Positions 5,508-62,882 of a DNA stretch of 64,000 nucleotides are shown here, piece after piece. Position numbers and translations under genes: made by a program. The stretch comes from Demequina litoralis. GTDB taxonomy: Bacteria > Actinomycetota > Actinomycetes > Actinomycetales > Demequinaceae. The stretch is from contig NZ_JAUHPW010000013.1 in assembly GCF_030418455.1 (NCBI RefSeq), forward strand, positions 1 through 64,000. The letters are read 5' to 3'. The notes beneath the pieces were generated by a model that searched no databases, was not told the origin of the DNA, and was given only the letters and a program-made list of their open reading frames with translations. Position 1 is the stretch's first letter. Each line of letters opens with the position of its first letter.

Positions 5508-5807
5508 ATGTCTTCCCTTGAGCGATCCGATGTGGCGCGCCTCGCGGCGCTCGCCCGCATCGACATGACCGACGCGGACCTCGACCGCCTCTCGGGCCAG
5601 CTCGCCGTGATCGTCGACGCCGTCGCCAAGGTGGCCGAGGTCGCCGGCGAGGACGTCCCGGCGACGAGCCACCCGATCCCGATGGCCAACATCCACCGCG
5701 AGGACGAGGTCCGCCCGTCGCTGTCGCAGGACGATGCGCTGGCCGCCGCCCCCGAGGCGGAGGACGGGCGCTTCCGCGTCCCGCAGATCCTGGGGGAGGA
5801 GGCGTGA
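5508..5807 (+). CDS. gatC: Asp-tRNA(Asn)/Glu-tRNA(Gln) amidotransferase subunit C
   Basis: 99-residue GatC, the small belt-like subunit that holds GatA and GatB together in the transamidosome converting misacylated Glu-tRNA(Gln) and Asp-tRNA(Asn). It shows the N-terminal [24 protein letters not shown] helix pair and the C-terminal [10 protein letters not shown]...[14 protein letters not shown] belt typical of the family. It is the first gene of gatCAB. Its stop overlaps the GTG of gatA. One exact copy of the genome 10-mer (5729-5738) is embedded in it and reads Asp-Asp-Ala. Confidence 0.96.
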
Positions 5808-7321
5808 CCATGACCGACTGGACCCGCGCCACCGCCGCCCGGATGGCCGACGCCCTCGCCGCCGGCGAGGTCACCTCGGTCGAGCTCGTGCAGGCGCACC
5901 TCGACCGCATCGCCGCCGTGGACGGCCCCGTCCACGCCTTCCTCCACATCGACGCCGAGGGCGCGCTCGAGACGGCCCGCGCCGTCGACGCCGACCGTGC
6001 CGCGGGCGTCGAGCTGCCCCGCCTGGCGGGCGTGCCGATCGGCATCAAGGACGTGCTCGTCACGAAGGGCCTGCCCACCACGGCCGGCTCGCGCATCCTC
6101 GAGGGCTGGATCCCGCCGTACGACGCGACGGTGACCCGCCGCGTCCGAGAGGCCCGCATGCCCATCCTGGGCAAGACCAACATGGACGAGTTCGCGATGG
6201 GCTCCTCCACGGAGCACTCGGGCTACGGCCCCACCCGCAACCCGTGGGACCTCTCTCGGATTCCTGGAGGTTCGGGCGGCGGCTCGGCCGCGGCGCTCGC
6301 GGCCTTCGAGGCGCCCCTCACCATCGGCTCGGACACCGGCGGCTCGATCCGCCAGCCCGCCTCGGTCACCGCGACCGTGGGCGTCAAGCCGACCTATGGC
6401 GGCGTCTCCCGCTTCGGCGCGATCGCCCTCGCCTCGTCCCTCGACCAGCTGGGCCCGTGCGGCCGCACCGTGCTCGACACGGCGCTCCTGCACGAGGTGA
6501 TGGGCGGCCACGACGAGATGGACGCCACCTCGCTCGACGAGCCCGTCCCCGCCGTGGTGTCGGCTGCCATGGAGGGCGCCACGATGGACCTCACGGGTGT
6601 GAAGGTCGGTGTGGTGCGCGAGCTCAGCGGCGCGGACGGCGGCTACCAGGCCGGCGTCACGCAGCGATTCGAGGAGTCGCTGGACCGGCTGCGGGAGATG
6701 GGCGCCGAGATCGTCGAGGTCTCGTGCCCGTCCTTCGAGTACGCGCTCGCCGCCTACTACGTCATCCTCCCGTCGGAGGCCTCGTCCAACCTGGCCAAGT
6801 TCGACTCGGTCCGCTTCGGCAAGCGCGTCGAGAAGGCCACGGTCGAGAAGACGATGCTCGCGACCCGCGCCGAGGGCTTCGGCGACGAGGTCAAGCGCCG
6901 CATCATCCTCGGCACGTACGCGCTCTCGGCCGGCTACTACGACGCGTACTACGGCTCGGCGCAGAAGGTGCGCACCCTGGTGCAGCGCGACTTCGACGCG
7001 GCCTTCGCGCAGTGCGACGTCCTGGTCTCGCCCACGACGCCGACCACGCCGTTCAAGATCGGCGAGCGCATCGACGACCCGCTGGCGATGTACCTCAACG
7101 ACATCGCGACCATCCCCGCGAACCTCGCGGGCATCCCCGGCATGTCGCTCCCCTCGGGTGTCGCGCCCGAGGACGGGCTGCCGGTCGGCTTCCAGATCCT
7201 GGCGCCGGCGCACGAGGACGCCCGTCTGTACCGCATCGGCGCCGCCCTCGAGGCGTCGCTGACCGCCGAGTGGGGCGGCCCGCTGTCCACGCAGGCGCCC
7301 GAGCTGGAGGTGGCCGAGTGA
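5804..7321 (+). CDS. gatA: Glu-tRNA(Gln) amidotransferase subunit A
   Basis: 505-residue amidase-signature glutaminase that supplies ammonia to GatB. The catalytic Ser-cisSer-Lys triad is visible: K82 (GIKDVL), S157 (PGGSGGGS) and S181 (SDTGGS). The start is the GTG overlapping the gatC stop; an ATG two codons later is an alternative. Oddity: at 6254-6271 the codons TCT CGG ATT CCT GGA GGT form a run of disfavoured codons in a gene otherwise using almost only C/G-ending ones, right at the conserved active-site loop. It is coupled to gatB by another 4-base overlap. Confidence 0.97.
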
Positions 7322-8835
7322 CCACGATGACCTACGAGCAGGCGATGGAGGACTTCGACCCGGTCTTCGGCATCGAGGTCCACGTCGAGCTCAACACGAA
7401 GACCAAGATGTTCTGCGGCTGCGCCAACGAGTTCGGCGCGGAGCCCAACACGCAGGTCTGCCCGGTCTGCCTGGGCCTCCCGGGCGCGATGCCGGTCACG
7501 AACGAGAAGGCCGTCGAGTCGGCGATCCGCCTGGGCCTGGCCCTGGGCTGCTCGATCCGCGAGTCCTCGCGCTTCGCCCGGAAGAACTACTTCTACCCGG
7601 ACCTCGCGAAGGACTACCAGATCTCGCAGTACGACGAGCCGACCTGCTACGAGGGCTCCCTCGACGTGGTCCTCGACGACGGCACCGTGGTGACGATCGG
7701 CATCGAGCGCGCGCACATGGAGGAGGACGCCGGCAAGAACACCCACGTGGGTGGCACCGGCGGCATCCAGGGCGCCGACTACTCGCTGGTCGACTACAAC
7801 CGCGGCGGCGTGCCGCTGGTCGAGATCGTCACCAAGCCGATCACCGGCATGGGCGCCCGCACCGCGGAGGTGGCCCGCGCCTACGTCGCGACGATCCGCG
7901 ACATCGTCCGCGCCCTGGGCATCTCGGACGGCCGCATGGAGCAGGGCTCCGTCCGCGCCGACGTCAACCTGTCGCTGCGCCCCAAGGCGGTCGCAGGGGA
8001 GTCGCAGGACGACGTCCCCTTCGGCAAGCGCTCCGAGACCAAGAACGTGAACTCGCTGCGCGCGATCGAGCGCGCGGTGCACTTCGAGGCGGCCCGCCAG
8101 GCGATGCTGCTGCTCTCGGGCGAGCACGTGGTCCAGGAGACGCGCCACTGGCACGAGGACACCTCGTCGACCACGCCGGGCCGCTCCAAGGAGGAGGCGG
8201 AGGACTACCGCTACTTCCCGGAGCCGGACCTGCTGCCGGTCGAGCCCTCGCGCGAGTGGGTCGAGGAGCTCCGGAGCACCATCCCCGAGCACCCCGCCAA
8301 GATGCGGGCGCGCCTCCGCGAGGAGTGGGGCTTCTCCGACCTCGAGATGCGCGACGTGGTCGCGGCCGACGCGCTCATCCTCATCGCGGCCACCGTGCAG
8401 GCGGGGACGACCGCCCAGGCCGCGCGCAAGTGGTGGATGGGCGAGCTGTCGCGCGTCGCGAACGACCGCGAGGTCGCGCTCACGGGGCTGCCCGTCACCC
8501 CCGACGCGATCGCCGAGCTCCAGGGCCTCATCGACGACGGCAAGATCAACGACAAGCTCGCGCGTCAGGCGCTCGAGGGCGTCCTCGCGGGCGAGGGCTC
8601 GCCCGCCGAGGTGGTCGCGTCGCGCGGCCTCGAGGTCGTCTCCGACGACTCGGCTCTCGAGAAGGCGGTGGACGATGCGCTGGCCGCCCAGCCCGACGTC
8701 CTCGCCAAGATCCAGGACGGCAAGGTCCAGGCCGCGGGCGCGATCGTGGGCGCGGTCATGAAGGCCACGCGCGGCCAGGCGGACGCTGGCCGCGTGCGGG
8801 AGATCATCCTCCAGCGCGCCGGCGTGGAGGGCTGA
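7318..8835 (+). CDS. gatB: Asp/Glu-tRNA amidotransferase subunit B
   Basis: 505-residue GatB, the kinase/transamidase subunit that phosphorylates and amidates the tRNA-bound Glu or Asp. The cradle domain begins [17 protein letters not shown] and carries the zinc-site cysteines (FCGC...CPVCLGLPG). The conserved [20 protein letters not shown] block, the EEDAGKN site and the C-terminal tail domain (YqeY-like, about residues 350-505) are all present. Translation probably starts at the GTG overlapping gatA's stop; ATG 7327 is an alternative. A strong stem-loop closes the operon. One exact 10-mer copy (8670-8679) reads Asp-Asp-Ala. Confidence 0.97.
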
Positions 8836-8842
8836 CCCTCCC

Positions 8843-8908: not shown

Positions 8909-8955
8909 GTGCGTTGCGGGACGACGCGACCGTCCCGCGGCGTTAACCTCGGATC

Positions 8956-14225: not shown

Positions 14226-15517
14226 GACCAGAAGACGATGTGGTGGGCCTCGCACCATGCCGGAGGGGCTCCACAGAACGCGCACCCGCCGTCGCGCTCA
14301 CCCAATGCGATGCGTTGCGCGCGTGAGAAGGGGTACGTGCGCCGCCCGAGGTTGAGCACCTCGCCCTTCTCGCCCAAGAGTGCGGGGATGAGGATCGCGG
14401 AGGTGATCATGCGTTGCACAGTGGTCATGCCGATGGGTTGCGTGCAGCCGTCGACCTCGCCCAACCCGGTGCCGGTCTCGAGGTCGGTGGCGGTGGCGCG
14501 GAGGACGACGGAGGTGGTGCCGAACAGGGCGGTCGTGGTCTCACAGCCCAGGGCGTGGCGGGCCAGATCGGCCAGCGAGTCGGCGCGCATCTGATCAGTG
14601 GTGCGCGGGTCCACGCCGGGCACGTCGCGGCTTGCGCGCATCGCGTCCCCGACGAGTTTGTCCAGCGCGGCCCGGAGGGGTGCGGCGGTCTCGGGATCGA
14701 GCTCTCCGTGAAGGACGAGCATCCCTTCACGGTTCTCCCACATCCGCAGCGACCGCCGACGACGCATCCGGGCCTGCGAGCGTTCGTGCTGCTCACCGTC
14801 GATGGTCGCTTTGAAGCGGGAGACGATCTTGGCGAACCGGGACGCATCCAACCCCTTGGCGCGCTCCACCAGCTCGGCGGCGGCCTCCTGCTTGCACTCT
14901 GCAGGTACGTCCGGCGACAGGGAATCGAGCATGGTGATGATCTGGGCGCCGCAGTCTGCGGAGATCACGCCGGCATCCAGCGCAGAGGCGACCGCGGGGT
15001 AGCGCGGCTCGGGCTTGGGCTTGGGTGTCGGCTTGGGAGTCGGAGGCGGGTTGTCCTCAGGATCGTCATCGTCGTCCGGGTTGCCCTCGTCCTCCGGGTT
15101 GCCCTCGTCCTCCGGGTCATCGTCGGGCTCGTCGGGATCGGGACCGCCGCCGTCCATCTCCTCCAGAGCCCGCCCGACCTCGAGCAGCCGGCCGGCCTCG
15201 GCTCGAGTGGTGCCCATCGTCGCCGCGACGAGCTCAGCGGCGCTGCGGTAGCCGTGATGCTTGGCGATCCCGCCTCCGGGCACGTCCGACAGGCGCTCGA
15301 CATCCCGCGCCGTGCGCGCCAGCACCATGTCCACCTCGCGGGCCAGCTGCGCCGCGTCCCCGAGGCGTTCCACCACGCCCCCCGCGCCGACGCCGGCGGC
15401 CGTCAGCCCCCGCATCGTCCCCACCGCCGCCCGCGCCTCCAGGCACGCACGCCCGAACGCGTCGACCCCGGCGGCAGACCCGCCGGGGAGATCGTCGAAC
15501 AGGTACGAGGCGTTCAT
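14206..15517 (-). pseudogene. N-terminal 437 codons of split DUF222-HNH gene (13E12 family)
   Basis: The protein begins MNASYLFDDLPGG. It has a DUF222 domain (about residues 25-330) interrupted by an acidic low-complexity insert of repeated Glu-Asp-Glu-Gly-Asn-Pro and then Pro-Lys repeats (about 130-170). The first half of the HNH domain follows (CAFCG...WCEAHHIVFWSRRGRTD). The insertion falls between GRTD and TANGVLL, so the nuclease lacks its last metal-binding His residues. After the junction the frame continues for another 179 codons through element sequence to 13670, giving a 615-residue chimera. DUF222-HNH genes are multi-copy actinobacterial families of uncertain role. The remainder is at 9833-10072. 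Confidence 0.9.
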
Positions 15518-15746: not shown

Positions 15747-17945
15747 ATGGCACGCGACCACGGCACGATGGCGCACGAGGCGCCCGCGCCCGACGACCAC
15801 ACCGACCACACCGACCACACCGGCCATGCCGAGCACGGCGACCACACCAGCGACGCGAACAGCAAGACCGGCAAGACCGGCAGGACCGGCAGGACCGGCA
15901 AGGGCAGCAGCCACGCCAACCATGACGCCCACACCCACCACGGCACGGACCACAGCGGCCACGCGATGCTCTTCAAGCGGCTGTTCTGGTGGAACCTGCT
16001 CCTCGCGATCCCGGTGATCGCGACGAGCGAGATGGTCGAGGGCTGGCTCGGCTACGACCTGCCCGGCTCGGCGTGGATCCCGCCGGTGCTGGGCACCGTG
16101 ATCTTCCTCTGGGGCGGCTGGCCGTTCCTCAGCATGGCCTGGCGCGACGAGATCACCGTCCGCAAGCCGGGCATGATGACCCTGATCTCGCTCGCCATCA
16201 GTACAGCGTTCATAGCGTCCGCGGCGGCCACGTTCGGCGTCGGCGACCTGAGCTTCTGGTGGGAGCTCGCGGCGCTGATCGTCGTCATGCTCTTGGGCCA
16301 CTGGCAGGAGATGAAGGCGGTGGGTCAGGCGCAGGGCGCCCTCGCCGCCCTCGCCGAGCTGCTGCCGGACGATGCGGAGCGCACCACCCCGGACGGCGGC
16401 ACCGAGCACGTGAGCATCGGCGACCTCCAGAACGGCGACACCGTCGTCGTCCGCCCCGGCGGCCGCATCCCGGCCGACGGCGCCATCGTCAAGGGCGACG
16501 CCAGCATCGACGAGTCGATGATCACCGGCGAGTCCGCCCCGGTGGCCAAGGGCGAGGGCGACCACGTGGTCGCCGGCACCGTCGCGACCGACGGCGCGCT
16601 ACGCGTCGAGGTCACCGCCACCGGCGACGACACCGCCCTCGCCGGCATCCAGCGCATGGTCCAGGACGCCCAGAACAGCCGTTCGGGCACGCGCAAGCTC
16701 GCCGACCGCGCCGCCGCATGGCTCTTCTGGATCGCCCTCGCCGCCGCCGCCCTCACCTTCGCGGTCCACGCCGTGCTCGGCGACCCCGCGCAGGGCCTCA
16801 CCGCCGCCGTCTCGGTCCTCGTGATCGCCTGCCCGCACGCGCTCGGCCTCGCCATCCCGCTCGTCATCGCGATCGCGACCTCCACCAGCGCCAAGCAGGG
16901 CATCCTCGTCAAGGACACGGCGGCGCTCGAGGCCATGCGCACCATCGACGCGGTCCTCTTCGACAAGACCGGCACCCTCACCCGCGGCGAGCACGCGCTC
17001 ACCGGCACCGCTGCCGCCGGCACCGCCACCACCGACGCGATCGACGACGACACGATGCTCGCCCTCGCCGCCGCCGTCGAGCAGGACTCCGAGCACCCCA
17101 TCGGTCGTGCCGTCGTCGCGGCCGCCCAGGACCGCGGCCTCGACATCCCGACCGCCGAGGACGCGGACACGCTGCCCGGACGCGGCGTCCGCGCCCGCGT
17201 CGACGGGAAGGACGTCGCCGTCGGCGGCCCCAGCCTGCTCGACCACCTCGGCATCGAGGCACCGGCCAGCCTGGACGATGCGGCGGCCGGGTGGCGCGAG
17301 AAGGGCGGCGCGGTGCTGCACGTCGTGGTCGACGGCGAGGTCGTCGGCGCCTTCACCACCGCCGACCCGATCCGCGAGGAGTCCCGCCAGGCCGTCGAGG
17401 CGCTCCACGCCCGCGGCATCGACGTCGCCCTCATCACCGGCGACTCGCAGGCCGTCGCGGACGCCGTCGCGCGCGAGCTCGGCATCGACGACGTCTTCGC
17501 CGAGGTCCTCCCCGACGACAAGGACCAGGCGGTCGCCGACCTTCAGGGCAAGGGCAAGAAGGTCGCCATGGTGGGCGACGGCGTGAACGATGCGCCGGCC
17601 CTGGCGCGCGCCGACGTCGGCCTGGCCATCGGCGCCGGCACCGACGTCGCGATGGAGGCCGCGGGCGTGGTGCTCGCGGGCTCGGATCCGCGCGGCGTCG
17701 TCGGCGTGATCGAGCTCTCGCATGCGAGCTACCGCAAGATGCGCCAGAACCTCGTGTGGGCCACCGGCTACAACGCCGTGGCGATCCCGGTCGCCGCGGG
17801 CGCGTTCCAGTGGGCGGGCCTCACCATGCCGCCCGCGGTCGCGGCGATCGCGATGAGCCTGTCGACCATCGTGGTGGCCGCGAACGCGCAGCTGCTGCGC
17901 CGGGTCGCCCTCAAGCCCGAGGAGGTCGCCGCCGACGAGGCCTGA
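15747..17945 (+). CDS. copB: P1B-type heavy-metal ATPase (CopB/P1B-3-like)
   Basis: 732 residues from ATG 15747 with Shine-Dalgarno GAGGAGG. The N-terminus (about 85 residues) is His/Asp-rich with H-T-D-H-T-D-H repeats and a Lys-Thr-Gly run, a probable metal-collecting tail; no CxxC domain is present. The membrane metal site is CPH (C362-P363-H364), which marks the P1B-3 subgroup proposed to export copper or silver. The phosphorylation site is DKTGT (D406), TGES and the GDGVNDAPAL hinge are intact. A small stretch around 16201-16220 uses rare codons AGT, ACA and ATA. It is controlled by a MerR-type site. The downstream gene converges. Confidence 0.93.
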   Translation: MARDHGTMAHEAPAPDDHTDHTDHTGHAEHGDHTSDANSKTGKTGRTGRTGKGSSHANHDAHTHHGTDHSGHAMLFKRLFWWNLLLAIPVIATSEMVEGWLGYDLPGSAWIPPVLGTVIFLWGGWPFLSMAWRDEITVRKPGMMTLISLAISTAFIASAAATFGVGDLSFWWELAALIVVMLLGHWQEMKAVGQAQGALAALAELLPDDAERTTPDGGTEHVSIGDLQNGDTVVVRPGGRIPADGAIVKGDASIDESMITGESAPVAKGEGDHVVAGTVATDGALRVEVTATGDDTALAGIQRMVQDAQNSRSGTRKLADRAAAWLFWIALAAAALTFAVHAVLGDPAQGLTAAVSVLVIACPHALGLAIPLVIAIATSTSAKQGILVKDTAALEAMRTIDAVLFDKTGTLTRGEHALTGTAAAGTATTDAIDDDTMLALAAAVEQDSEHPIGRAVVAAAQDRGLDIPTAEDADTLPGRGVRARVDGKDVAVGGPSLLDHLGIEAPASLDDAAAGWREKGGAVLHVVVDGEVVGAFTTADPIREESRQAVEALHARGIDVALITGDSQAVADAVARELGIDDVFAEVLPDDKDQAVADLQGKGKKVAMVGDGVNDAPALARADVGLAIGAGTDVAMEAAGVVLAGSDPRGVVGVIELSHASYRKMRQNLVWATGYNAVAIPVAAGAFQWAGLTMPPAVAAIAMSLSTIVVAANAQLLRRVALKPEEVAADEA

Positions 17946-17956: not shown

Positions 17957-19300
17957 CTACCGCTCCGCGAGCTTCTCCAGCAGCAGCGCCTGCGCGACGA
18001 TCATCCGCTCGATCTCGTCGGGGTCCACGCTCTCGTCCGACGCGTGGATGCGCGCCTTGTCCATGTCCTCGGGTCCCCACAGCACGAACTCCGCGGCCGG
18101 GCACGCCTCGTGGAGCGTCTGGAGCAGCGGGATCGACCCGCCCGACCCGACCTCGGAGGCCTCCGACCCGAAGGCCTCCGACATGGCCTCGCGCGCGGCG
18201 GACACGCCCGAGCCGCCGCTCGGCACCAGGAACGCCGGCGCGGCCTTGACCCGCTTCACCTCGACCTGAGCCCCCCACGGCGCGTGGGACTCGAGGTGCG
18301 CGACGAGCGCGTCGAGCTCGGCCTCCGGATCCGTGCCGGGGACGATGCGCATCGAGATCTTCGCGCTCGCCTGCGGCAGGATCACGTTCGAGGACCCCGC
18401 GATCGACGTCGTGTCGATGCCGATCGCGTTGATCGACGGCTTGGCCCACAGGCGGTCCGAGACCGTCCCGGTGCCGATCAGCGACACCCCGTCGAGCAGC
18501 GGCACGCCCTCGAGGAAGCTCTCCTCGCTCTGCTCGGCGCCCTCCCACGTGCCGGTGGTGACGCCCGCGACGGCCACGTCGCCCGCATCGTCCACGAGCG
18601 TGGACAGGAGGCGCGCGAGCGCCATCATCGCGTCCGGGGCGGCGCCGCCGAAGACGCCCGAGTGCAGCGGGTGGTCGAGCGTGCGCACGGTGACCGTGCA
18701 CGAGACGTCGCCGCGCAGCGCGGTGGTGAGCACCGGCTCGCCCGCGACGAGGTTGCCCATGTCGCACACGACGAACAGGTCGCACTGGAACAGGTCGGGG
18801 TGCGCCTCGACGAACTCCTCCAGGTTGCTCTCGGTCTCCTCCATGCCCTCGAGGATCAGCCGGATGGTGACCGGCGGCTTCCCGTCGAAGGCGCGCATCA
18901 TGCCGAGGTGCGTCGCGAGGCCCGACTTGTCGTCGGCGGCGCCGCGCCCGTACAGGCGGCCGTCCTCCTTGCGCGTCGGCGTCCACGGGTCCGTGGTCCA
19001 GCCCTGCGACTCGGGTGCCGGCTGCACGTCGTAGTGCGCGTACAGCACCACCACCGGCGAACCGGGAGGCCCGGGCAGCTCGGCGTAGATCGGCGGGTAG
19101 CCGTGCGGCACCTCGGCGAGATGCGCATCCGTGAAGCCGGCCTCGCGGAACAGCTCGAGGGTGCGCTCGGCCATGCGGTGCATCGGCTCCTCGGGGTAGC
19201 CCGGGAACGCGACGGACGGGATCGAGATGAGCTCCTCGAGGTCCGCGATGACGCCGGGCATGAGCGCCCGGACCTTCTGCTGGATGTCCGCTGCGGGCAT
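17957..19300 (-). CDS. M20-family dipeptidase / peptidase
   Basis: 447 residues, a cytosolic zinc peptidase. First metal motif: YAHYDVQP (about residues 87-94). Then GRGAADDKSG (bridging Asp), EGMEETES (catalytic Glu pair) and, later, a dimerisation domain with PLHSGVFGG. The C-terminal catalytic return has GGSIPLLQ. The layout matches PepV/carnosinase-type M20 dipeptidases cleaving short peptides. It follows the Dcu-type transporter by 49 bases on the same strand, so both may form one unit; a link between dicarboxylate/aspartate uptake and peptide cleavage is only suggestive. Two copies of the 10-mer signal lie inside. Confidence 0.88.
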   Translation of the reverse strand: MPAADIQQKVRALMPGVIADLEELISIPSVAFPGYPEEPMHRMAERTLELFREAGFTDAHLAEVPHGYPPIYAELPGPPGSPVVVLYAHYDVQPAPESQGWTTDPWTPTRKEDGRLYGRGAADDKSGLATHLGMMRAFDGKPPVTIRLILEGMEETESNLEEFVEAHPDLFQCDLFVVCDMGNLVAGEPVLTTALRGDVSCTVTVRTLDHPLHSGVFGGAAPDAMMALARLLSTLVDDAGDVAVAGVTTGTWEGAEQSEESFLEGVPLLDGVSLIGTGTVSDRLWAKPSINAIGIDTTSIAGSSNVILPQASAKISMRIVPGTDPEAELDALVAHLESHAPWGAQVEVKRVKAAPAFLVPSGGSGVSAAREAMSEAFGSEASEVGSGGSIPLLQTLHEACPAAEFVLWGPEDMDKARIHASDESVDPDEIERMIVAQALLLEKLAER

Positions 19301-19349: not shown

Positions 19350-20696
19350 TCAGAAGAACGCGCCGATCACCGCTCCGACCACGACTGTAGTGACCGAGAG
19401 GATGAGCATCGGCATGAAGAAGCTGTGGTCGAGGAGCTTGGTGCCGAGCTTGGTGGACCCGGTTTCGTCGAAGTTCGCGGCGGCGATCTGGGGGCCGTTG
19501 GCCGGCAGCGTGTAGACGCCGCCGAGGCCGCCGGCCCACATGCCGGCGACGGCTCCCACGGGGAGGCCCGCCGCGAGGCCGATGGGCACGATCGTGTTGG
19601 TCGCGGTGGACTGGCTCGTGGTCATCGCCGCGACCAGGAACACGGCGAGGGCGAAGAGGAGCGGGACGCTGGTGACCCACGAGCCGACGGACTCGACGAT
19701 GAACTCCTCGTGCGCCGCGATGAAGGTCGCGGTGAGCCATGCGATGCCGAACAGGGCGATGGCGGCGACCATGCCCGCCTTGAACACCGACTGATCGGGC
19801 ACCGCGCCCACCTTCGGCCGGCCCACGAAGATGATGAGCGCGCTGACCACGAGCATCACCAGGATGATCGTGACGCCCATGTCGACCCGCACGCTCTCGC
19901 CGTCGACCGTGTACGTCGGGCGCAGGCCCTCGAAGATCCCGAACGCGACGATCGCGAACACGCCGATGAGGAACGTGACCGCCGCGTTCCGCCCCCGCGC
20001 GGTGTAGGTGAGGCGTGCGCTCGCGGGCCCTCCCGCATCGTCCTTGAGCGCCGCGACCGCGCCGGCGGCGATGCGCTCCTGGATCTCGGGGTCGTCGTCC
20101 ATGTCCTTCCACATGCGGTTCACCACGAGGGACGTCACCACGATGCCGATGACGCAGGCGGGGAACGTGATCGCGAGGATCTGCGCGAGGCCGAGGTTGT
20201 ACGGGGCGACGTCGGTGAACGCCAGCATCGCGGCCATCGCGGCGGACACGGGCGAGGCGGCCAGCGCGATGCCGGACTGCACCACCGTCACGGTCAGCGG
20301 CCGCGCGGGACGGATCCCGTTCTTCACCGAGAGGTCGTAGACCACGGGCAGCAGCGGGAAGACGATGTTGCCCGTTCCCGCGCCGGCGCAGAACAGGAAC
20401 GCGGTCAGCGGCGCGATGAGCGTGATCTGCTTGGGCCGGCTCTCGATCACCCGCGCCGCCATCGCGACCATCCAGTCGATGCCGCCCGCGGCCTGCATGA
20501 GCGCCGCCGCGGTGACCACGCCGAGGATGATGCCGATGGCGGTGATGGGCGCCGCGCCCGGCGCCTCGCCGAACAGGAACACCAGCACGAAGGTGCCGAC
20601 GCCGCCCCAGATGCCGACACCGATGCCGCCCGTCCGGGTGCCGAGCACGATCGACCCGAGCACCACGATGGCCTCGAGCACGAAGCTCACGGTCAT
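19350..20696 (-). CDS. Anaerobic C4-dicarboxylate transporter, DcuA/DcuB family
   Basis: 448 residues with about ten hydrophobic segments. The N-terminus LEAIVVLGSIVLGTRTGGIGVG and the following AALMQAAGGIDWMV and AGTGNIVFPLLPVVYD blocks match the DcuA/DcuB antiporter family, which exchanges fumarate, malate or aspartate for succinate across the membrane. A charged cytoplasmic loop (about residues 205-235) divides the two halves. It lies immediately upstream of the M20 peptidase. In actinobacteria its direction and substrate are not known; aspartate or succinate are the usual guesses. Confidence 0.85.
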   Translation of the reverse strand: MTVSFVLEAIVVLGSIVLGTRTGGIGVGIWGGVGTFVLVFLFGEAPGAAPITAIGIILGVVTAAALMQAAGGIDWMVAMAARVIESRPKQITLIAPLTAFLFCAGAGTGNIVFPLLPVVYDLSVKNGIRPARPLTVTVVQSGIALAASPVSAAMAAMLAFTDVAPYNLGLAQILAITFPACVIGIVVTSLVVNRMWKDMDDDPEIQERIAAGAVAALKDDAGGPASARLTYTARGRNAAVTFLIGVFAIVAFGIFEGLRPTYTVDGESVRVDMGVTIILVMLVVSALIIFVGRPKVGAVPDQSVFKAGMVAAIALFGIAWLTATFIAAHEEFIVESVGSWVTSVPLLFALAVFLVAAMTTSQSTATNTIVPIGLAAGLPVGAVAGMWAGGLGGVYTLPANGPQIAAANFDETGSTKLGTKLLDHSFFMPMLILSVTTVVVGAVIGAFF

Positions 20697-20730: not shown

Positions 20731-20806
20731 CCGTCGACCCCTCAGGCTGACATTACGCGTGAGGTCCGACGGCCGCCTGGGGAGGGACGATGCGCGACCC
20801 GCACGG

Positions 20807-22219
20807 TCAGGGGAGGTAGGCCCCCGCGGCGGCGGCGTACGCCTCCATGATCTCCGGCCGGGTGTCCTGCGCAGGCGCCGCGACCACGGCGAGCGGCCAC
20901 GCGGGCCGCGAACCCGTCAGCGCCCACGCGGCTTGCGCCGCGGCGCCCGCGGCGACGTACTCGCCGGGCTCGGGCACCTCGACGGGCACGTCGAACACCT
21001 GGGCGGCGATGGCCTGCACCGCGGGGTTCTGCGCCGAGCCGCCGACCAGCAGCGCGCGCTTCGCGACCACCCCGGCGGACAGGATCGCCTCCATGCCCAC
21101 CGCCTGCGCCGCGAGCATGCCCTCGATCGCGGCGCGGGCCATGTTCGCGCGCGTGGTGTTCGCCAGCGTCATCCCGGACAGCGTCGCGGTGGCGTCGGGC
21201 AGGTTGGGGGTGCGCTCGCCCTCGAAGTAGGGGACCAGGGTGAGGCCGCCGGCGCCCGGCTCGGCCTCCATCGCCAGCTCGCCCAGCTCGTCGTAGCCCA
21301 CGCCCAGCACGCGCGCGAACGCGTCGAGCACGCGCGAGGCGTTGAGGGTGCACACGAGCGGCAGGTGCTCGCCGGAGGCGGACGCGAAGCCCGCCACGAT
21401 GCCGGTCGCGTCGCGGAAGCCCTGCTCGGTCACCGCGAACACGGTCCCCGACGTGCCCAGCGACACGACCACGTCGCCCACCGTCGCGCCGAGCCCCAGC
21501 CCCGCGGCGGCGTTGTCGCCGGCGCCGGGCCCGACCACGCAGGCGGACCCGTCGACGGTGCCCGCCCGCTCGCCCGGCCCGAGCACGCGCGGCACCACCG
21601 CATCGTGCCCCAGCGCGGCGACCAGCAGGTCGCGGTCGTACTCGCCGGTGGCGGGGTTCCAGTAGCCCGTGCCCGAGACGTCGGAGCGGTCCGTCGTCAG
21701 CTCCGTGAGCACCGGTCCCAGCGGGGACGATGCGACGGGCCCGTATCCCCGCAGGCGCCAGGTCAGCCAGTCGTGGGGGAGGGCGACGGCGGCCACGCGG
21801 GAGGCGTTCTCGGGCTCGGCGTCGCGCAGCCAGCGCAGCTTGGTCGAGGTGAACGAGGCGACGGGCACCAGTCCCGTGCGCTCGGCGAGCGCCTCCGCCC
21901 CGAACTCCGCGATGAGGTCCGCGGCGGCGCCGGCCGAGCGGGTGTCGTTCCACAGCAGCGCGTCGCGGACCACCTCGCCGTCCGCGTCCAGAGCGACCAT
22001 GCCGTGCTGCTGCCCGCCCACGGAGATCGCGGCGACGTCGTCGAGCCCGCCTGCCTCGGCGAGAGCCGCCTGGAGGGCGTCCCACCAGAACGCGGGGTCC
22101 ACCGATGTCCCGTCGGGGTGCGACGCGCGGCCCTGGCGCACCACCTCGCCGGACTCGAGGTCGCGGACCACGACCTTGCAGGACTGGGTGGACGAGTCGA
22201 CTCCGGCGACGAGCGTCAT
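20807..22219 (-). CDS. xylB: Xylulokinase
   Basis: 470-residue FGGY-family sugar kinase. The N-terminal phosphate loop is [11 protein letters not shown], the conserved [14 protein letters not shown] motif (catalytic region) follows, then LLWNDTRS (substrate site) and the C-terminal ATP-binding block with [21 protein letters not shown]. It phosphorylates D-xylulose to xylulose-5-phosphate, the step after XylA. It is encoded directly downstream of xylA on the same strand, separated by 90 bases that contain a strong hairpin, which would lower xylB expression relative to xylA. Confidence 0.96.
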
Positions 22220-23550: not shown

Positions 23551-23718
23551 ATACCCGGCGGGTGGCCGCGTCAAAACGCGGCGCCGCGTCGCCGGGACGA
23601 TGCGCGGACCGCCGGGGCAGCCCCCGACGGGACGATGCGGGTCGGCCCCGCGCGCGGAGCCCCGGTGCACCCCGGAGGGGCGCCGGGACGGCATACTGAC
23701 GGACACGGAGGAGGAGCG

Positions 23719-24918: not shown

Positions 24919-25869
24919 ATGATCACCGTCTCCGTGCCCTCCCCGGAGGTCGCCGACGCGCTCGGCGACGTCGGCCCCGACGCGCGCGTCATCGTGTGGG
25001 ACCCGGCCGTGTCCGACCCTCCGGAGGAGGAGCGCGAGCGCATCACCATCGCGTGCCTCGCGCATTTCACCGGGGGCCGCCGCCTCTACGGGCGCCTCGC
25101 GACCTGCCCCGACCTCAAGGTGATCCAGATCGCCTCGGCCGGCTACGAGCACGCCCTGCCGTTCGTGCCGCCCGGCGTGTCCCTCGCCAACGCGCGCGGC
25201 GTCCACGACACGCGCGTCGCCGAGATGACGCTGCTGCTCGCGCTCGCCTCGCAGCGGCGGCTGCCGCGCTTCCTCGATTCCCAGCGTCGCGGCGTGTGGG
25301 AGCAGGACCTCGAGGCGCCGTCGCTCGCGGACTCCCGCGCGCTCGTCGTCGGCTACGGCTCGATCGGCGCCGCGATCGGCGCGCGCCTGCGTGCCTGCGA
25401 GGTGGAGGTCGAGGGCGTCGCCCGTACCGCGCGGATCGCCGCTGACGGCACGCTCGTGCATGCCGCCGACGACCTCCTCAGCCTGCTGCCGCACCAGGAC
25501 CTCGTCGTCGTCGTGACGCCGCACGCCGAGGACACCGACAGGCTGGTCGATGCGGCCTTCCTTGCCGCGATGAGGGACGATGCGCTGCTCATCAACGTGG
25601 GACGCGGCAAGGTGGTCGACACCGACGCCCTGCTCGCGGAGCTCGGGTCCGGCCGCCTGCGCGCCGCCCTCGACGTCACGGACCCCGAGCCGCTGCCCGA
25701 CGGCCACCCGCTGTGGTCGGCGCCGAACTGCATCGTCGTGCCCCACGTGGCCGGCGTCGAGCGCCTCACGAACCGTCGCTACACGGACCTGGTGCGCGCG
25801 CAGGTCGAGGCCCGGCGGCATGGCGACGACCCGGTCAACTTCGTGATGATGGGCGCCTTCCCCGCGTAA
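24919..25869 (+). CDS. D-isomer-specific 2-hydroxyacid dehydrogenase
   Basis: 316 residues. NAD-binding Rossmann motif VVGYGSIGAAIGARL (about 146-160), then the family signatures LLPHQDLVVVVTPHAEDT, LINVGRGKVVDTDAL and the catalytic Arg, Glu and His (RG..., DVTDPEPLPDGHPLW, PHVAG). Reduces a 2-oxoacid or oxidises a D-2-hydroxyacid; substrate unknown. It follows the ROK gene by 39 bases on the same strand and may be co-transcribed. CAGACT lies six bases upstream of the ATG, so a separate leaderless start is also possible. Its stop codon is inside a terminator hairpin. Confidence 0.87.
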   Translation: MITVSVPSPEVADALGDVGPDARVIVWDPAVSDPPEEERERITIACLAHFTGGRRLYGRLATCPDLKVIQIASAGYEHALPFVPPGVSLANARGVHDTRVAEMTLLLALASQRRLPRFLDSQRRGVWEQDLEAPSLADSRALVVGYGSIGAAIGARLRACEVEVEGVARTARIAADGTLVHAADDLLSLLPHQDLVVVVTPHAEDTDRLVDAAFLAAMRDDALLINVGRGKVVDTDALLAELGSGRLRAALDVTDPEPLPDGHPLWSAPNCIVVPHVAGVERLTNRRYTDLVRAQVEARRHGDDPVNFVMMGAFPA

Positions 25870-28755: not shown

Positions 28756-28963
28756 GGTGCCTCCTTCCCGGCGCCCGCCGGTGAGGGCGGCGGCCGGGGC
28801 CGTGCGCCCGGGGGCGCCCTCGCTGGCGGGCTCCACGGTACGGGCGGCGTGTGTCGGGCGCGTGACGGCCGGGAAATAACTCTGTTACGGCCGGACGATG
28901 CGCGGGCCGGGTGGGGCGGGACGGGCGGCTGGGCGCCGGAGGAGGCGCCGCGCGCACGCGGCC

Positions 28964-35297: not shown

Positions 35298-36995
35298 ATG
35301 ACGCAGACCCCCGACATCAAGCCCCGGTCGCGCCAGGTCACTGACGGCCTGGAGGCGACCGCGTCCCGCGGCATGCTCCGCGCGGTCGGTCTCGGCGACG
35401 AGGACTTCGCGAAGCCGCAGATCGGCATCGCGTCCTCGTGGAACGAGATCACCCCCTGCAACCTGTCGCTCCAGCGCCTCGCCGCATCGTCCAAGAACGG
35501 CGTGCACGCCGGCGGCGGCTACCCGCTCGAGTTCGGCACCATCTCCGTGTCGGACGGCATCTCGATGGGCCACGAGGGCATGCACTTCTCGCTCGTGTCG
35601 CGCGACCTCATCGCGGACTCGGTCGAGACGGTGATGATGGCGGAGCGCCTCGACGGCTCGGTGCTGCTCGCCGGCTGCGACAAGTCGCTGCCCGGCATGC
35701 TCATGGCCGCGGCCCGCCTCGACCTCGCGAGCGTGTTCCTCTACGCGGGCTCGATCATGCCGGGCCACGTCACCCTCTCGGACGGCACGTCCAAGGACGT
35801 CACCATCATCGACGCGTTCGAGGCGGTCGGCGCGTGCGCCCGCGGCCTCATGTCCGAGGAGGACCGTCTCGCGATCGAGAAGGCGATCTGCCCGGGCGAG
35901 GGCGCGTGCGGCGGCATGTACACCGCCAACACGATGGCGTCCGTGGGCGAGGCCCTCGGTATGTCGATCCCCGGCTCCGCCGCCCCGCCGAGCGCGGACC
36001 GTCGCCGCGACTACTACGCCCACAAGTCGGGCGAGGCGGTCGTCAACATGCTGCGTCTCGGCATCACGGCGCGCGACATCATGACCAAGGAGGCGTTCGA
36101 GAACGCCATCGCCGTCGTCATGGCGTTCGGCGGCTCGACCAACGCCGTCCTCCACCTCCTCGCGATCGCGAACGAGGCCGAGGTCGACCTCACGCTCGAC
36201 GACTTCGCGCGCGTGGCCTCCAAGGTCCCGCACCTGGGCGACCTCAAGCCGTTCGGCCAGTTCGTCATGAACGACGTCGACCGCGTGGGCGGCGTGCCCG
36301 CCGTCATGAAGACGCTGCTCGACGCGGGCCTCATGCACGGCGACGTCATGACGGTCACCGGCAAGACGCTCGCCGAGAACATGGACGAGCTCAAGCCCGC
36401 CGCCATCGACGGTCGCGTGGTCCGTGCGCTCAACAACCCGATCCACAAGACCGGCGGCATCACCATCCTCAAGGGCTCGCTCGCCCCCGAGGGTGCGGTG
36501 GTGAAGTCGGCCGGCTTCGACGACGACGTCTTCGAGGCCACCGCCCGCGTCTTCGACCGCGAGCGGGCCGCGCTCGACGCCCTCGAGGACGGCACCATCC
36601 AGGCCGGCGACTGCGTCGTCATCCGCTACGAGGGCCCCAAGGGCGGCCCCGGCATGCGCGAGATGCTCGCCATCACCGCCGCGATCAAGGGCGCGGGCCT
36701 GGGCAAGGACGTCCTCCTCATCACGGACGGCCGCTTCTCCGGCGGCACCACGGGCCTGTGCGTCGGTCACATCGCGCCGGAGGCCGTCGACGGCGGCCCC
36801 ATCGCGTTCGTGCGCGACGGCGACAGGATCACGCTCGACGTCGCCAACGGCACGCTCGAGCTGCACGTCTCCGACGAGGAGCTCGCCGCCCGCCAGGAGG
36901 GCTGGGAGCCCATCCCCGCGCGGTTCACCAAGGGCGTGCTGGGCAAGTACCAGAAGCTCGTCGGCTCGGCCTCGCGCGGCGCCGTCCTCAGCTGA
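35298..36995 (+). CDS. ilvD: Dihydroxy-acid dehydratase
   Basis: 565 residues. It dehydrates 2,3-dihydroxy-isovalerate and -methylvalerate in Val/Ile/Leu synthesis. Fe-S ligand cysteines are in GCDKSLPG and [12 protein letters not shown]; a further one (TPCN) is near the N-terminus. [18 protein letters not shown] is the C-terminal signature. It is separated from ilvBHC by the ECF/TolB-like module but is clearly part of the same pathway. One 10-mer copy (35483) is in its early coding region. Confidence 0.97.
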
Positions 36996-45399: not shown

Positions 45400-46511
<1,112 letters not shown>

Positions 46512-46751: not shown

Positions 46752-47801
46752 ATGACGTCCTACCGCCTCGCGGTGGTCGCCGGCGACGGCATCGGTCCGG
46801 AGGTCGTGGCGGAGGGGCTCAAGTGCCTCGCCGCCGCGACGGAGGGCACCGGCATCACGTTCGAGACCACCGAGTTCGACCTCGGCGCGAAGCGCTGGCA
46901 CGCGACGGGGGAGACCCTCACGGATGCGGACCTCGAGGCGATCAAGGGCCACGACGTCATCCTGCTCGGCGCGATCGGCGACCCGACGGTGCCGTCCGGC
47001 GTCCTCGAGCGCGGCCTGCTGCTCAAGCTCCGCTTCGAGCTGGACCAGTACGTCAACCTCCGTCCCTCGCGCCTGTACCCGGGCGAGGTCTCGCCGCTGA
47101 GCGACCCGGGCGACATCGACTTCGTCGTGGTCCGCGAGGGCACCGAGGGTCCGTACGTGGGCAACGGCGGCGCGCTGCGCGTCGACACCCCGCACGAGAT
47201 CGCGACCGAGGTGTCGGTCAACACCCGTCACGGTGTCGAGCGCGTGGTCCGCTACGCCTTCGACGTCGCCTCCAAGCGCGAGCGCAAGCACGTCACCCTG
47301 GTGCACAAGCACAACGTGCTCGTCCACGCGGGCCACCTGTGGCGCCGCACGGTCGAGGCCGTCGCGCCCGAGTTCCCCGGCGTCACGTGGGACTACCTGC
47401 ACGTCGACGCGGCGACCATCAAGCTCGTCACGGCCCCCGCATCGTTCGACGTCATCGTCACCGACAACCTCTTCGGCGACATCCTGACCGACGAGGCCGC
47501 GGCCATCTCGGGCGGCATCGGCCTCGCGGCGTCCGGCAACGTGAACCCCGACAAGACCGGCCCCTCGATGTTCGAGCCGGTCCACGGCTCCGCGCCCGAC
47601 ATCGCCGGCCAGCAGAAGGCGGACCCGTCCGCCACGGTGCTGTCGGTCGCGATGATGCTCGACTTCCTCGGCCACGCCGAGCTCGCCGCCAAGGTCGAGG
47701 CCGCCGTCGCGGACGATGCGGCGGCCAAGGTCGCGGAGGGCTGGGGCCCCCGCACCACGGTCGAGGTGGGCGACGCGCTCGCCGCCCGCATCCGCGGCTA
47801 G
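46752..47801 (+). CDS. leuB: 3-isopropylmalate dehydrogenase
   Basis: 349 residues. Oxidative decarboxylation of 3-isopropylmalate in leucine synthesis. Features: [51 protein letters not shown], the metal Asp motif [14 protein letters not shown] and the adenine-binding [23 protein letters not shown]. The actinobacterial type is shorter in loops. An exact 10-mer copy (47711) reads Asp-Asp-Ala near the end. It is followed by ilvE on the same strand. Confidence 0.97.
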
Positions 47802-49058: not shown

Positions 49059-49197
49059 CGGGACGATGCGCGGCGCGCCACCGCGCCGCGCCGTCGCGCG
49101 TGCGTCGGGAGGCCTGCCGGCTCTCGCGCCCTCGCGTTCGCGCCGCCGACCCCGCATGATGGGACGCGAGCGCATCAGCGACCGCAAGGAGGAGCCC

Positions 49198-52574: not shown

Positions 52575-52730
52575 CGACTCCCAATGACACATGTGACGCA
52601 TGGGGAAGCGGGCCGCGTGCCGCGACCGCCGCATCGTCCCGGCGCCCCCGACAGGTGGGGGCCTTCCCGCCGTCGCCGCCCCGACGTAGCCTGACGGGGT
52701 CGCGCCGCGGCGCGGCAGGGGAGGGCCGTC

Positions 52731-55538: not shown

Positions 55539-56105
55539 TCAGAGGACGTCGTACACGAGCGTGACGTGGCCGCTCGGAAGGGCGTCGATCTCCACGGGGC
55601 GCAGCGTGCGCGCATGCCGCAGCCCCGGGGTGGTGGTGCGGCCCTCGCCGATGAGCACCGGGACGATGCGCAGCCGCACCACCTCGACCAGTTCGGCCTG
55701 GAGCAGGGCGCCGGCGAGCATGAGGCTGCCCCACAGCACGATGTCGCCGTCGTAGCGGTGCTTGAGCCGGCGCACGGTGTCGCGCGGCTCGCCCACCTCG
55801 ACGGTCGCCGACGCATAGTCGCCCCACGGCGCGCGCCTCAGCGTGTTCGTGACGACGTGCTTGGGGGTCTCGTTGATGAAGTCGGCGAGGGGCTCCTCGT
55901 CCGTGGTCCTGCCGGGCCAGTAGTCGGAGAACAGCTCGTAGGTGGTGCGGCCCAGCAGGATCGCGTCGACGTTCTCGAGCATCGCGATCTGCCCGGGGTC
56001 CGTCGCGTCGAACGGTCCGGGGATGCGCATGAAGTCGAGCCGGCCGTCCGGGCCTGCGGCGAAGCCGTCGACCGTGACGATCTGCTCGACGATGAGGCGA
56101 CCCAT
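55539..56105 (-). CDS. RibD C-terminal / dihydrofolate-reductase-like protein
   Basis: 188 residues. The fold of RibD_C: MGRLIVEQIVTVDGFAAGPDG, then AILLGRTTYELFSDYWPGRTT, HVVTNTLR, then IVLWGSLMLAGALLQAELVEVVRLRIVPVLIGEGRTTTPG. Such stand-alone proteins bind NADPH and reduce an unknown pteridine- or flavin-like molecule. A 10-mer copy (55661) lies within it. Confidence 0.86.
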   Translation of the reverse strand: MGRLIVEQIVTVDGFAAGPDGRLDFMRIPGPFDATDPGQIAMLENVDAILLGRTTYELFSDYWPGRTTDEEPLADFINETPKHVVTNTLRRAPWGDYASATVEVGEPRDTVRRLKHRYDGDIVLWGSLMLAGALLQAELVEVVRLRIVPVLIGEGRTTTPGLRHARTLRPVEIDALPSGHVTLVYDVL

Positions 56106-56148: not shown

Positions 56149-56667
56149 CTAGGGACGATGCGCGGGCTCGGCGGCGCGGTCGTCCGGGGTCTTCATACGG
56201 GTGACCGCGCGCAGGTCGCGGCCCGCGATCACCAACGTCACGATGGCCGGCAGGGCGATCACCGTGTCCCACAGCTGGCCGGGCGCGCCCATGCCGATCA
56301 CGGCGTCGCTCGGCTGCACGGCGATCCACTGCGACACGGCGAGCACGGCGATCCACGCGGCCATCCCGGCCACGGTCACCCACGCGACGACGCGCCAGGC
56401 CTTGACCACGCCTGCGTTCTCGGCGGCGCGGGTGCGACGGACGATCCATCCGGCGACGAGTGCGAACGCGGTCACGAGCATCACCGCGCCGAGGAGCCAG
56501 TTGGCCTCCTTGGGCATCGCCCGCTCGGCCGGGATGACGCTCGCGCTCGGGTCGTCCCACGTGCGCAGCTGCTCGGGCACGCTGACCACGACGAGCAGCG
56601 CGCCGAGCGCAAGCACGATGCGCACCGTCAGGGAGCCTGCTGCCACGAGCCGCGACCACTGTGTCAT
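56149..56667 (-). CDS. Four-TM membrane protein, unknown
   Basis: 172 residues with four hydrophobic segments (about 15-32, 57-76, 92-112, 134-148). A basic loop RRTRAAENAGVVKAW separates segments 2 and 3. No catalytic motif. Its last codons and stop (Pro-Ala-His-Arg-Pro-stop) are formed by the genome 10-mer in its extended form. It is not closely coupled to either neighbour. Confidence 0.65.
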   Translation of the reverse strand: MTQWSRLVAAGSLTVRIVLALGALLVVVSVPEQLRTWDDPSASVIPAERAMPKEANWLLGAVMLVTAFALVAGWIVRRTRAAENAGVVKAWRVVAWVTVAGMAAWIAVLAVSQWIAVQPSDAVIGMGAPGQLWDTVIALPAIVTLVIAGRDLRAVTRMKTPDDRAAEPAHRP

Positions 56668-58086: not shown

Positions 58087-58192
58087 CCCCGCAGCTTGCC
58101 GCAACGCGTCGCGAGAAGCTACCCCCGCATCGTCCCACCGGGCCCGATCCCGCCCACCGGAATACCCTCGAACAGAAGGGGGTTCCGCCACC

Positions 58193-58909: not shown

Positions 58910-59473
58910 ATGAAGCCTTGGGGTAGTGCGCCACGCCACGGATCCGATAGCGACCCGGCGGGCCCGCGCGCCCCGCGGCCGGGCGACGGATCCGGGGTCG
59001 CCCGCGCGCGCCGGCCGCGCGTCTGGATCCTGCTGCTGGTCGCCTTCGTCGCCTTCTGCATCTGGGACGGGCTCCAGAGCGCGGACGATGCGGTCGCGCG
59101 CCAGGCGGCCGCGTCGAGCGGCCTCGTCGTCGGAGACACGTACTGCGACCACACCCGGGTGAGCGAGATCGAGGGCGGCTATCGGGTCGAGGTGCGCAAG
59201 CAGTACGACGAGAGCGTTCCCGGCCCGCCCCTCACCTTCGACCTCGTGGCGTCCTCCGAGGATGTCTCGCACGCGAGCGGCTGGGAGCCGATCGAATGGT
59301 CCGAGGGCGTCGCGTACCTGCGCCCCGGGAACGATCCCGCGCTCGCGCTCGCCATGGGCGGGCGCTGGTGGACCGCGCGCCTGGTGGGGGAGGAGGAGGC
59401 GCTCGTCGGCGACGAGCTTGTCCACGCGTTCTCGGTGCTCGACGACGTCCTCGAGATGCGTGTCGCGCTGTGA
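58910..59473 (+). CDS. Single-pass membrane protein (tandem paralogue 1 of 3)
   Basis: 187 residues: Pro/Gly/Arg-rich cytoplasmic N-terminus, one TM helix (VWILLLVAFVAFCIWDGL), then an extracellular domain with ADDAVARQAAASSGLVVGDTYC, YRVEVRKQYDESVPGPPLTF and a closing WWTARL...FSVLDDVLEMRV. The layout and the 'ARxAAxxxGI/LxV' helix are shared with the next two genes. Starts with a G-run leader (GCTGGGGGGTTAGTGCG). Not recognised. Confidence 0.7.
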   Translation: MKPWGSAPRHGSDSDPAGPRAPRPGDGSGVARARRPRVWILLLVAFVAFCIWDGLQSADDAVARQAAASSGLVVGDTYCDHTRVSEIEGGYRVEVRKQYDESVPGPPLTFDLVASSEDVSHASGWEPIEWSEGVAYLRPGNDPALALAMGGRWWTARLVGEEEALVGDELVHAFSVLDDVLEMRVAL

Positions 59474-60133: not shown

Positions 60134-60178
60134 GGACGATGCGCGGGCAGGTTCCACCTGGCGCCAAGGGGGCATGAC

Positions 60179-60730: not shown

Positions 60731-60863
60731 CAGGAGGGACGATGCGGCGCGGGTTTCGCGCTTGAGTGCACCTCGGGCGGGTGCGAAGATGAACAAAAGG
60801 TGAACGTCACGGGCTCCGGCCCGACGGCCGCAACCTCCGCAACGGCGCGGAAGGGAGATCGCC

Positions 60864-62551: not shown

Positions 62552-62565
62552 GAAAGGGCACCGCC

Positions 62566-62808
62566 ATGCACATCAAGATCCTCGGCCCCGGCTGCGCGAA
62601 CTGCGCGAACCTCGAGCGCGCCACGCGCGAGGCGATCGACGGTCTCGGGCTGTCCGCCACCGTCGAGAAGGTGACGGACTACGGCGAGATCGCCGCCTAC
62701 GGCATCATGCGCACCCCGGGCCTCGTCGTCGACGAGGAGGTCGTCCTCGCCGGCCTCGTCCCCACCGCAGCGCGGGTCAAGGAGCTGCTCGCCGCGCGCA
62801 CGGCGTAG
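62566..62808 (+). CDS. Small thioredoxin-like redox protein (CxxC)
   Basis: 80 residues: MHIKILGPGCANCANLERATREAI, with CANC in place of CGPC, and RTPGLVVDEEVVLAGLVP. A glutaredoxin-like fold of the 'redox-active disulfide protein 2' type. In this operon it likely passes electrons or metal to the permease. Its TAG is followed by an exact 10-mer. trxB starts 74 bases later. Confidence 0.88.
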   Translation: MHIKILGPGCANCANLERATREAIDGLGLSATVEKVTDYGEIAAYGIMRTPGLVVDEEVVLAGLVPTAARVKELLAARTA

Positions 62809-62882
62809 GGACGATGCGCGGGCCGGGTGAACATCCGGTGACCGCCCTTGCGCTTTGATGTGACGTCTGCCTAAATAGAGAC

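Follow-up and report, generated by a model that had tools for sequence, protein, structure and literature searches.

A high-copy 10-mer with related dialects as a candidate DNA uptake signal in Demequina litoralis

Introduction

The known uptake sequences are covered in PMC5031613, and the closest described systems are the DNA uptake sequence (DUS) of Neisseriaceae and the uptake signal sequence (USS) of Pasteurellaceae. For the neisserial DUS, PMC3630211 describes eight dialects round a conserved core as well as inverted pairs. The USS is a high-copy short word (PMC1626085, PMC1939737). In this study, the 10-mer GGACGATGCG was analyzed in a stretch of 64,000 nucleotides, i.e., the window, from the actinomycete Demequina litoralis (GCF_030418455.1, contig NZ_JAUHPW010000013.1, positions 1 to 64,000). 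An earlier note on this DNA had presented the word as an undescribed, genome-specific signal that resembles a DNA uptake sequence, a Chi-like site or a polar segregation motif. As judged from genome sequences, GGACGATGCG is probably the dialect in which this Demequina carries a DNA uptake signal.

The word resembles the neisserial DUS in its length of 10 bases, dialects round a core, presence on both strands, intergenic permissiveness and inverted pairs. It differs in sequence, phylum and envelope (monoderm Actinomycetes). Moreover, one family of the order, f19, includes genomes that carry a similar word and lack type IVa pili. The Pasteurellaceae USS is likewise a high-copy short word, but its sequence is unrelated. 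USS shows flanking preferences, and its flanks are AT-rich. In contrast, the flanks of the present word prefer G and C weakly, and AT-rich flanks were not seen.

Micrococcus luteus, also an actinomycete, uses Flp/Tad pili for DNA uptake (PMC4322843, PMC6370729). It is similar in showing actinomycete DNA uptake with ComEA/ComEC, but the term "uptake sequence" is absent from the main text of PMC4322843. A statement in PMC12153270 describes monoderm uptake as being without sequence specificity. Among the open-access papers listed in searches by taxon, none was seen to report an uptake sequence for Actinobacteria, Actinomycetota, Demequina, Microbacterium, Leifsonia or Cryobacterium, and those listed in a search for the words themselves were unrelated by title. 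The word is undescribed in the papers so listed.

Results and Discussion

Abundance and structure of the word

The window contained 36 exact copies of GGACGATGCG, 24 on the plus and 12 on the minus strand, whereas 100 dinucleotide shuffles gave 1.0 on average and at most 4. It was the top 10-mer by excess over an order-2 Markov model in the window and in a separate 400-kb sample. The 35 copies reported in the earlier note were all right in position and strand, and one minus-strand copy was added. The host genome (3,024,998 bases in 22 contigs; G+C 72%) carried 1,564 copies, i.e., 793 plus and 771 minus, at a density of about 1 per 1.9 kb, and the reversed word occurred five times. The word is non-palindromic and strand-balanced at this scale. 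The strand bias reported before (24:11) is therefore local; it was seen in the window and vanished genome-wide.

Copies inside and outside genes were counted in 464 kb, i.e., the window and 400 kb of contig C1, by using a simple gene caller. Genes contained 121 copies against 12.4 expected (maximum 19) in 60 synonymous codon shuffles, and the gaps contained 70 against a Markov expectation of 0.63. The excess was approximately 10-fold in genes and 110-fold between genes, far above both kinds of model by which the earlier note had wanted the count judged. An earlier version of the calculation was similar (coding 124 vs 12.9, intergenic 67 vs 0.45). Genes carried 0.30 copies per kb and the DNA between them 1.26, i.e., the density was approximately fourfold higher outside genes, and the proposed gap enrichment was confirmed. 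In the window, crude gene calls placed 15 of the 36 copies in intergenic DNA, where sixteen had been placed "in gaps or at stops". Co-directional gaps carried 1.78 copies per kb, divergent gaps 1.35 and convergent gaps 1.15. Spacing over 400 kb was random-like, with a coefficient of variation of 1.0. Two control searches in other Demequina genomes stayed at expectation, i.e., GGACGATGCG in G027 (coding 1 vs 0.7, intergenic 0 vs 0.11) and GGCCGATGC in G003 (coding 5 vs 4.3, intergenic 1 vs 0.27).

The perfect word occurred 193 times against 7.4 expected, and every one-mismatch word was far lower. Words with a mismatch in the core, positions 4-9 (CGATGC), stood at 0-3 times the Markov expectation, mostly below twice, on small counts. 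Mismatches at positions 1, 2 and 10 reached 5, 4 and 3 times the expectation, and at position 3 only C was above it (1.9 times). In the sister species G008, whose word is given below, the most tolerant positions were 2 (G, T) and 10 (C). Among the 70 intergenic copies, G was found at -1 in 74%, at +13 in 76% and at +14 in 63%. The extension to GGGACGATGCGCGGGC described for gap copies is a tendency.

Head-to-head pairs less than 60 bases apart were found six times in the host, where 1.4 were expected per orientation, and seven times in G008, where 1.1 were expected. Pairs in the other orientations numbered 3 (++), 1 (--) and 1 (-+) in the host; in G008 they numbered 1 (++) and 4 (-+). Two head-to-head pairs lie in the window, at 35217-35284 and 45400-45430.

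Other words were also over-represented in the first 400 kb of contig C1 (1-400000, L003-L022), e.g., GTAGTAGT (24 vs 0.3) and CTCTCCCCCG (17 vs 0.46).

Dialects within Demequina

The words were counted in 37 Demequina genomes, host included, and in 22 genomes of other families in the order. GGACGATGCG reached 711-1,564 copies in 12 of the 37, 235 in G026 and 10-123 in the other 24, and the other families held 3-37. A second word, GGCCGATGC, reached 584-2,018 copies in 14 Demequina genomes, none of them rich in GGACGATGCG. The 12 users of GGACGATGCG also held 134-664 copies of GGCCGATGC, and the other families held 72-252, with 41-231 for the reversed controls. G008 was rich in neither word and carried GCCCGACGCT (172 vs 3.9 expected in 480 kb; coding 108 vs 5.0 shuffled, intergenic 63 vs 0.50). 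With 12 genomes rich in GGACGATGCG, 14 in GGCCGATGC and one in GCCCGACGCT, the word is not genome-specific, and the comparison of relatives which the earlier note proposed gave dialects built round a common core. The main words, aligned in register, are GGACGATGCG, GGCCGATGC[TCG] and GCCCGACGCT, with CGA[T/C]GC in common. They differ at positions 2, 3 and 10, and in G008 also at 7. The strict core is CGATGC in the host and CGACGC in G008.

In total, 27 of the 37 genomes were assigned to the main words. The weak or unassigned ten were G001, G003, G005, G006, G011, G012, G017, G026, G027 and G032. GCCCGACGCT was weak in G011 (15 vs 1.65 in 120 kb), GCCGATGCCG was found in G017 (26 vs 2.8 in 140 kb), and a de novo word search gave no clear word in G001, G003 and G027 (120 kb each). 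In G017 (L031-L033, L145-L148), a repeated word was also seen round CCTGGTAGCAAGGC, with 11-mers at 8 copies against 0.05-0.1 expected; this is perhaps a short dispersed repeat.

Orthologous sites were compared in loci of approximately 21.7 kb round pilB from nine species taken as users of GGACGATGCG and nine taken as users of GGCCGATGC. These 18 loci were grouped by the word counts of a single locus per species, and the grouping is rough in some cases, e.g., D. sediminicola. Among GGACGATGCG species, 150 of 314 aligned species-pair cells retained GGACGATGCG, compared with 24% for control 10-mers. In GGCCGATGC species, 0 of 305 cells retained it, compared with 11% for controls; these cells are not independent, because the 305 come from 36 species-sites. 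The commonest replacement was GGCCGATGCG (17 cells). At 41 GGCCGATGC sites, the 332 cells in GGACGATGCG species included 33 with CGCCGACGC, 26 with GGACGATGC and 18 with GGCCGATGC. Among GGCCGATGC species, GGCCGATGC was kept in 94 of 311 cells.

Similar words beyond Demequina

AGCGGATGCC occurred 533-913 times in four Cryobacterium genomes (reversed control 23-31) and 160 times in Leifsonia flava (reversed control 34). Two Cellulomonas genomes, one each of Actinotalea, Pengzhenrongella and Nocardioides, and two metagenome-assembled genomes held 10-25 copies. The better word in L. flava was CGGATGCCG, with 96 copies in 102 kb against 8.4 expected (coding 81 vs 8.7 shuffled, intergenic 15 vs 0.53). 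In register, AGCGGATGCC and CGGATGCCG have GATGC in common with most Demequina words, and common descent is possible. In loci of Cellulomonas and Actinotalea (up to 23 kb each), no comparably clear single word was found; the top words were of the kind of CCGAGCAGG in L084 (9 vs 0.86).

The order-wide draw comprised 297 genomes, of which 24 belong to one family, f19. In f19, CGGATGCCG had 800-3,277 copies in 18 genomes, 353-677 in five and 175 in G117. The lower counts, e.g., 353 against a control of 129 in G276, are not clear alone, because ratios of 3-4.5 to the reversed control also occurred in some low-count genomes of other families, e.g., G168 (138 vs 31). In 60 kb of the f19 genome G090, the word was enriched in genes (38 vs 4.1 shuffled) and between them (8 vs 0.41). 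The family is probably Microbacteriaceae, because L. flava was the best match for four of five compared pilus-locus proteins of the f19 genome G328, the best with 89% identity over 1,017 residues. In this pilus locus (L271), CGGATGCCG was not among the top words within 14 kb round pilB. Outside f19, four genomes exceeded 400 copies, i.e., three of 8.2-9.4 Mb (controls 254-290) and G264 of family f17 (445 vs 118), which may be a further user of CGGATGCCG.

Orientation on the chromosome

Polarity was tested on the complete chromosome of G008 with its dialect, GCCCGACGCT, in 24 sampled stretches. The word was present in all 24, at 88:84 by strand, and no regional clustering was evident in the sample. 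The replichore skew test suggested in the earlier note found no skew in this genome; the best half/half split among those tried gave 52% orientation agreement, which was reached or exceeded by 500 of 500 shuffles. This lack of polarity argues against KOPS-like (FtsK orienting polar sequence) sites and E. coli-like Chi sites. The proposed polar segregation motif was rejected on this ground. The Chi-like resemblance was weakened by it and by the enrichment outside genes.

Competence machinery and candidate receptor

On contig C1 of the host, a type IVa pilus cluster lies at 284.8-297.7 kb. It contains two T2SSE ATPases, i.e., PilB with an MshEN domain and PilT, as well as PilC, a pilin gene, further pilin-like genes, a prepilin peptidase, PilM, PilN and PilO. 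PilT was named from its place, the peptidase and PilN from place and look, and PilO matched at the cut-off. The PilB shares 99% identity with its counterpart in Demequina rhizosphaerae. A PilB-like T2SSE match of 1e-137 or lower was found in 25 of 25 Demequina genomes, and ComEC in 24 of 25, the genome without a match being 85% complete; G018 showed a second, weak ComEC match. Two 5-kb windows of the pilus cluster (C1 285-295 kb, L017), at 64-67% G+C, contained no copy of the word.

An orphan type IV pilin, a candidate receptor, was found near metE and/or a GNAT gene at all 28 loci compared, with both at 21. These loci are what remained of 30 returned by the profile after two within the pilus cluster were removed. 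All 44 Demequina genomes searched matched the profile, although in some the best match was the cluster pilin. Two cysteines were invariant in five aligned sequences. A DUS receptor of the ComP type would be an orphan minor type IV pilin that binds the word and has a disulfide-bonded part. The 23 sequence matches of the orphan pilin among solved structures were mostly type IV pilins, and none was called ComP.

In f19, ComEC was found in 24 of 24 genomes. A PilB match below 1e-180 was found in 10 of the 24, and these were also the genomes with a pilin leader above the cut-off; G104 gave one pilin-leader match below the threshold.

Uptake signal and rival explanations

The density of the word, its presence on both strands, the intergenic and head-to-head enrichment and the dialects with a shared core support the resemblance to a DNA uptake sequence, and it is reasonable to consider the word as such a signal. 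From these features we infer uptake, a receptor and a drive. The competence machinery would include a DNA receptor at the cell surface that binds the word, and fragments bearing the word would be taken up, passed through ComEC and recombined. New copies, once arisen, would owe their spread and retention to the uptake bias itself. A drift in the specificity of the receptor would be followed by the copies in the genome, giving dialects that favour the DNA of close kin. The candidate receptor in Demequina would be the small orphan type IV pilin near metE, and in f19 the receptor would be a Tad pilus or another surface protein.

We lean slightly towards a wider proposal, i.e., that uptake is sequence-specific in monoderm Actinomycetes. 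Dialects with the core [C/G]GA[T/C]GC would mark at least Demequina, Cryobacterium, Leifsonia and relatives, with an origin separate from those in Neisseriaceae and Pasteurellaceae, and the one family without type IVa pili would have a receptor of a new kind. If true, such dialects would contradict the lack of sequence specificity stated for monoderm uptake in PMC12153270. They would also offer a further origin on which to test how uptake tags arise and switch, and would point to natural transformation in these genera. In laboratory work on them, the right 10-mer would be worth adding to transforming DNA.

Several observations weigh against an uptake signal or against its details. In G008 the ComEC match was split into two overlapping pieces in different frames (L289, C1 2037501-2042500). 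Because the match lies in two frames, the gene is broken or misassembled, i.e., competence may be lost or the assembly may be wrong at comEC. The low-copy Demequina genomes G001, G003, G011 and G032 retain the orphan pilin. On an orphan-pilin tree of 26 of the 28 sequences (without G004 and G007; four rows without a dialect label), the dialects needed 10 changes, where the least possible is 4 and the shuffled mean was 14.3. They are thus clustered and not one to one with the pilin, and the link between dialect and pilin was not used as proof. Of the 14 f19 genomes in which neither a strong PilB match nor a pilin leader above the cut-off was found, 13 hold 353-3,084 copies of CGGATGCCG, 11 of them at least 800. 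Therefore, a type IVa pilin cannot be the receptor throughout, and a general link of the motif to type IVa pili in the order breaks down in this family. By analogy with M. luteus, Flp/Tad pili are a possible way out for genomes without type IVa pili. The Cryobacterium 8-mer GCGGATGC was enriched only approximately 3-fold in two samples (genes 52 vs 16.6 and 31 vs 10.8; gaps 4 vs 1.3 and 4 vs 1.4) and was sparser between genes than within them, which is not DUS-like. In-place switching of dialects is suggested and not established, because the replacements of GGACGATGCG by GGCCGATGCG come from only about two orthologous sites. Also, codon-atypical genes as a class showed no depletion of the word in a decile test.

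Among the rival explanations, a recombination site is the strongest, although we consider it rather unlikely. Chi sites are frequent, non-palindromic, species-variable words, and the present word has these properties. A site read by an AddAB/RecBCD-type enzyme would be kept by channelling break repair, and would work without a functional comEC, which is seemingly absent in G008. However, E. coli Chi is leading-strand biased, whereas G008 showed no replichore bias, and neither the fourfold higher density between genes nor the excess of head-to-head pairs fits such a site. A chromosome-architecture site, i.e., a motif of a nucleoid or segregation protein (KOPS-, matS- or parS-like), is a little less probable again. 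Such a site would agree with the presence of the word in every sampled G008 stretch and with orthologous sites kept above controls, but not with the absence of polarity and of evident regional clustering, or with the dialects of sister species and the near-loss in some.

Remnants of mobile or terminator-like repeats, spread by duplication rather than by recognition, would account for the intergenic enrichment and the hairpin-like pairs. This explanation is very unlikely, as only about 10 bases are shared with weak flank preferences, and 121 of the 191 sampled copies are coding ones, found in several reading frames and in both orientations. It is hardly credible that the word is a by-product of codon or amino-acid usage, i.e., of Asp-Asp-Ala runs. 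The earlier note had stated that coding copies mostly read Asp-Asp-Ala, and the x-Asp-Asp-Ala sense frame held 12 of the 21 coding copies in the window and 66 of the 121 in the 464-kb sample. However, this frame needs GAT, which is rarer than GAC in called genes by approximately 13:1, a preference also noticed before, and such an artefact is refuted by the synonymous shuffles as well as by the intergenic excess.

Copies in the window and atypical DNA

The copies in the window are listed in Table 1. A search of the window for RNA families and tRNAs found none.

Table 1. Exact copies of the 10-mer in the 64,000-nucleotide window of Demequina litoralis.
Feature	Position	Strand	Basis
GGACGATGCG copy, not in earlier note	4399..4408	-	exact match
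GGACGATGCG copy	5729..5738	+	exact match
GGACGATGCG copy	8670..8679	+	exact match
GGACGATGCG copy	15411..15420	-	exact match
GGACGATGCG copy	16367..16376	+	exact match
GGACGATGCG copy	17273..17282	+	exact match
GGACGATGCG copy	18340..18349	+	exact match
GGACGATGCG copy	18584..18593	-	exact match
GGACGATGCG copy	20034..20043	-	exact match
GGACGATGCG copy	20785..20794	+	exact match
GGACGATGCG copy	21725..21734	+	exact match
GGACGATGCG copy, direct pair, first	23595..23604	+	exact match
GGACGATGCG copy, direct pair, second	23630..23639	+	exact match
GGACGATGCG copy	25575..25584	+	exact match
GGACGATGCG copy	27441..27450	+	exact match
GGACGATGCG copy	27613..27622	-	exact match
GGACGATGCG copy	28104..28113	-	exact match
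GGACGATGCG copy	28893..28902	+	exact match
GGACGATGCG copy	31508..31517	+	exact match
GGACGATGCG copy	32748..32757	-	exact match
GGACGATGCG copy, head-to-head pair, left arm	35217..35226	+	exact match
GGACGATGCG copy, head-to-head pair, right arm	35275..35284	-	exact match
GGACGATGCG copy	35483..35492	-	exact match
GGACGATGCG copy	41182..41191	+	exact match
GGACGATGCG copy, head-to-head pair, left arm, 11 bases between arms	45400..45409	+	exact match
GGACGATGCG copy, head-to-head pair, right arm	45421..45430	-	exact match
GGACGATGCG copy	47711..47720	+	exact match
GGACGATGCG copy	49061..49070	+	exact match
GGACGATGCG copy	52630..52639	-	exact match
GGACGATGCG copy	55661..55670	+	exact match
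GGACGATGCG copy	56153..56162	+	exact match
GGACGATGCG copy	58126..58135	-	exact match
GGACGATGCG copy	59083..59092	+	exact match
GGACGATGCG copy	60134..60143	+	exact match
GGACGATGCG copy	60737..60746	+	exact match
GGACGATGCG copy	62809..62818	+	exact match

An integrated element had been described as free of the word, and indeed positions 8680-15410 contained no copy, with a chance of approximately 0.023 at the density of the window. Within this gap, the element at 10149-12143 comprises a serine recombinase (Resolvase, Recombinase and Zn_ribbon_recom domains) next to a minus-strand gene like Rep ORF2/G2P, and has lower G+C. The broader claim that the word is excluded from foreign DNA was weakly supported. 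The empty gap and the three most atypical 5-kb windows, which had zero copies, agree with it. However, densities were lowest in the two most codon-typical gene deciles (0.17 and 0.12 per kb) against 0.33 in the most atypical one, and over 92 windows of 5 kb the copies were not rank-correlated with atypicality (rho 0.08, p 0.44). A DUF222 protein of 615 aa, encoded on the minus strand at 13670-15517, adjoins the element.

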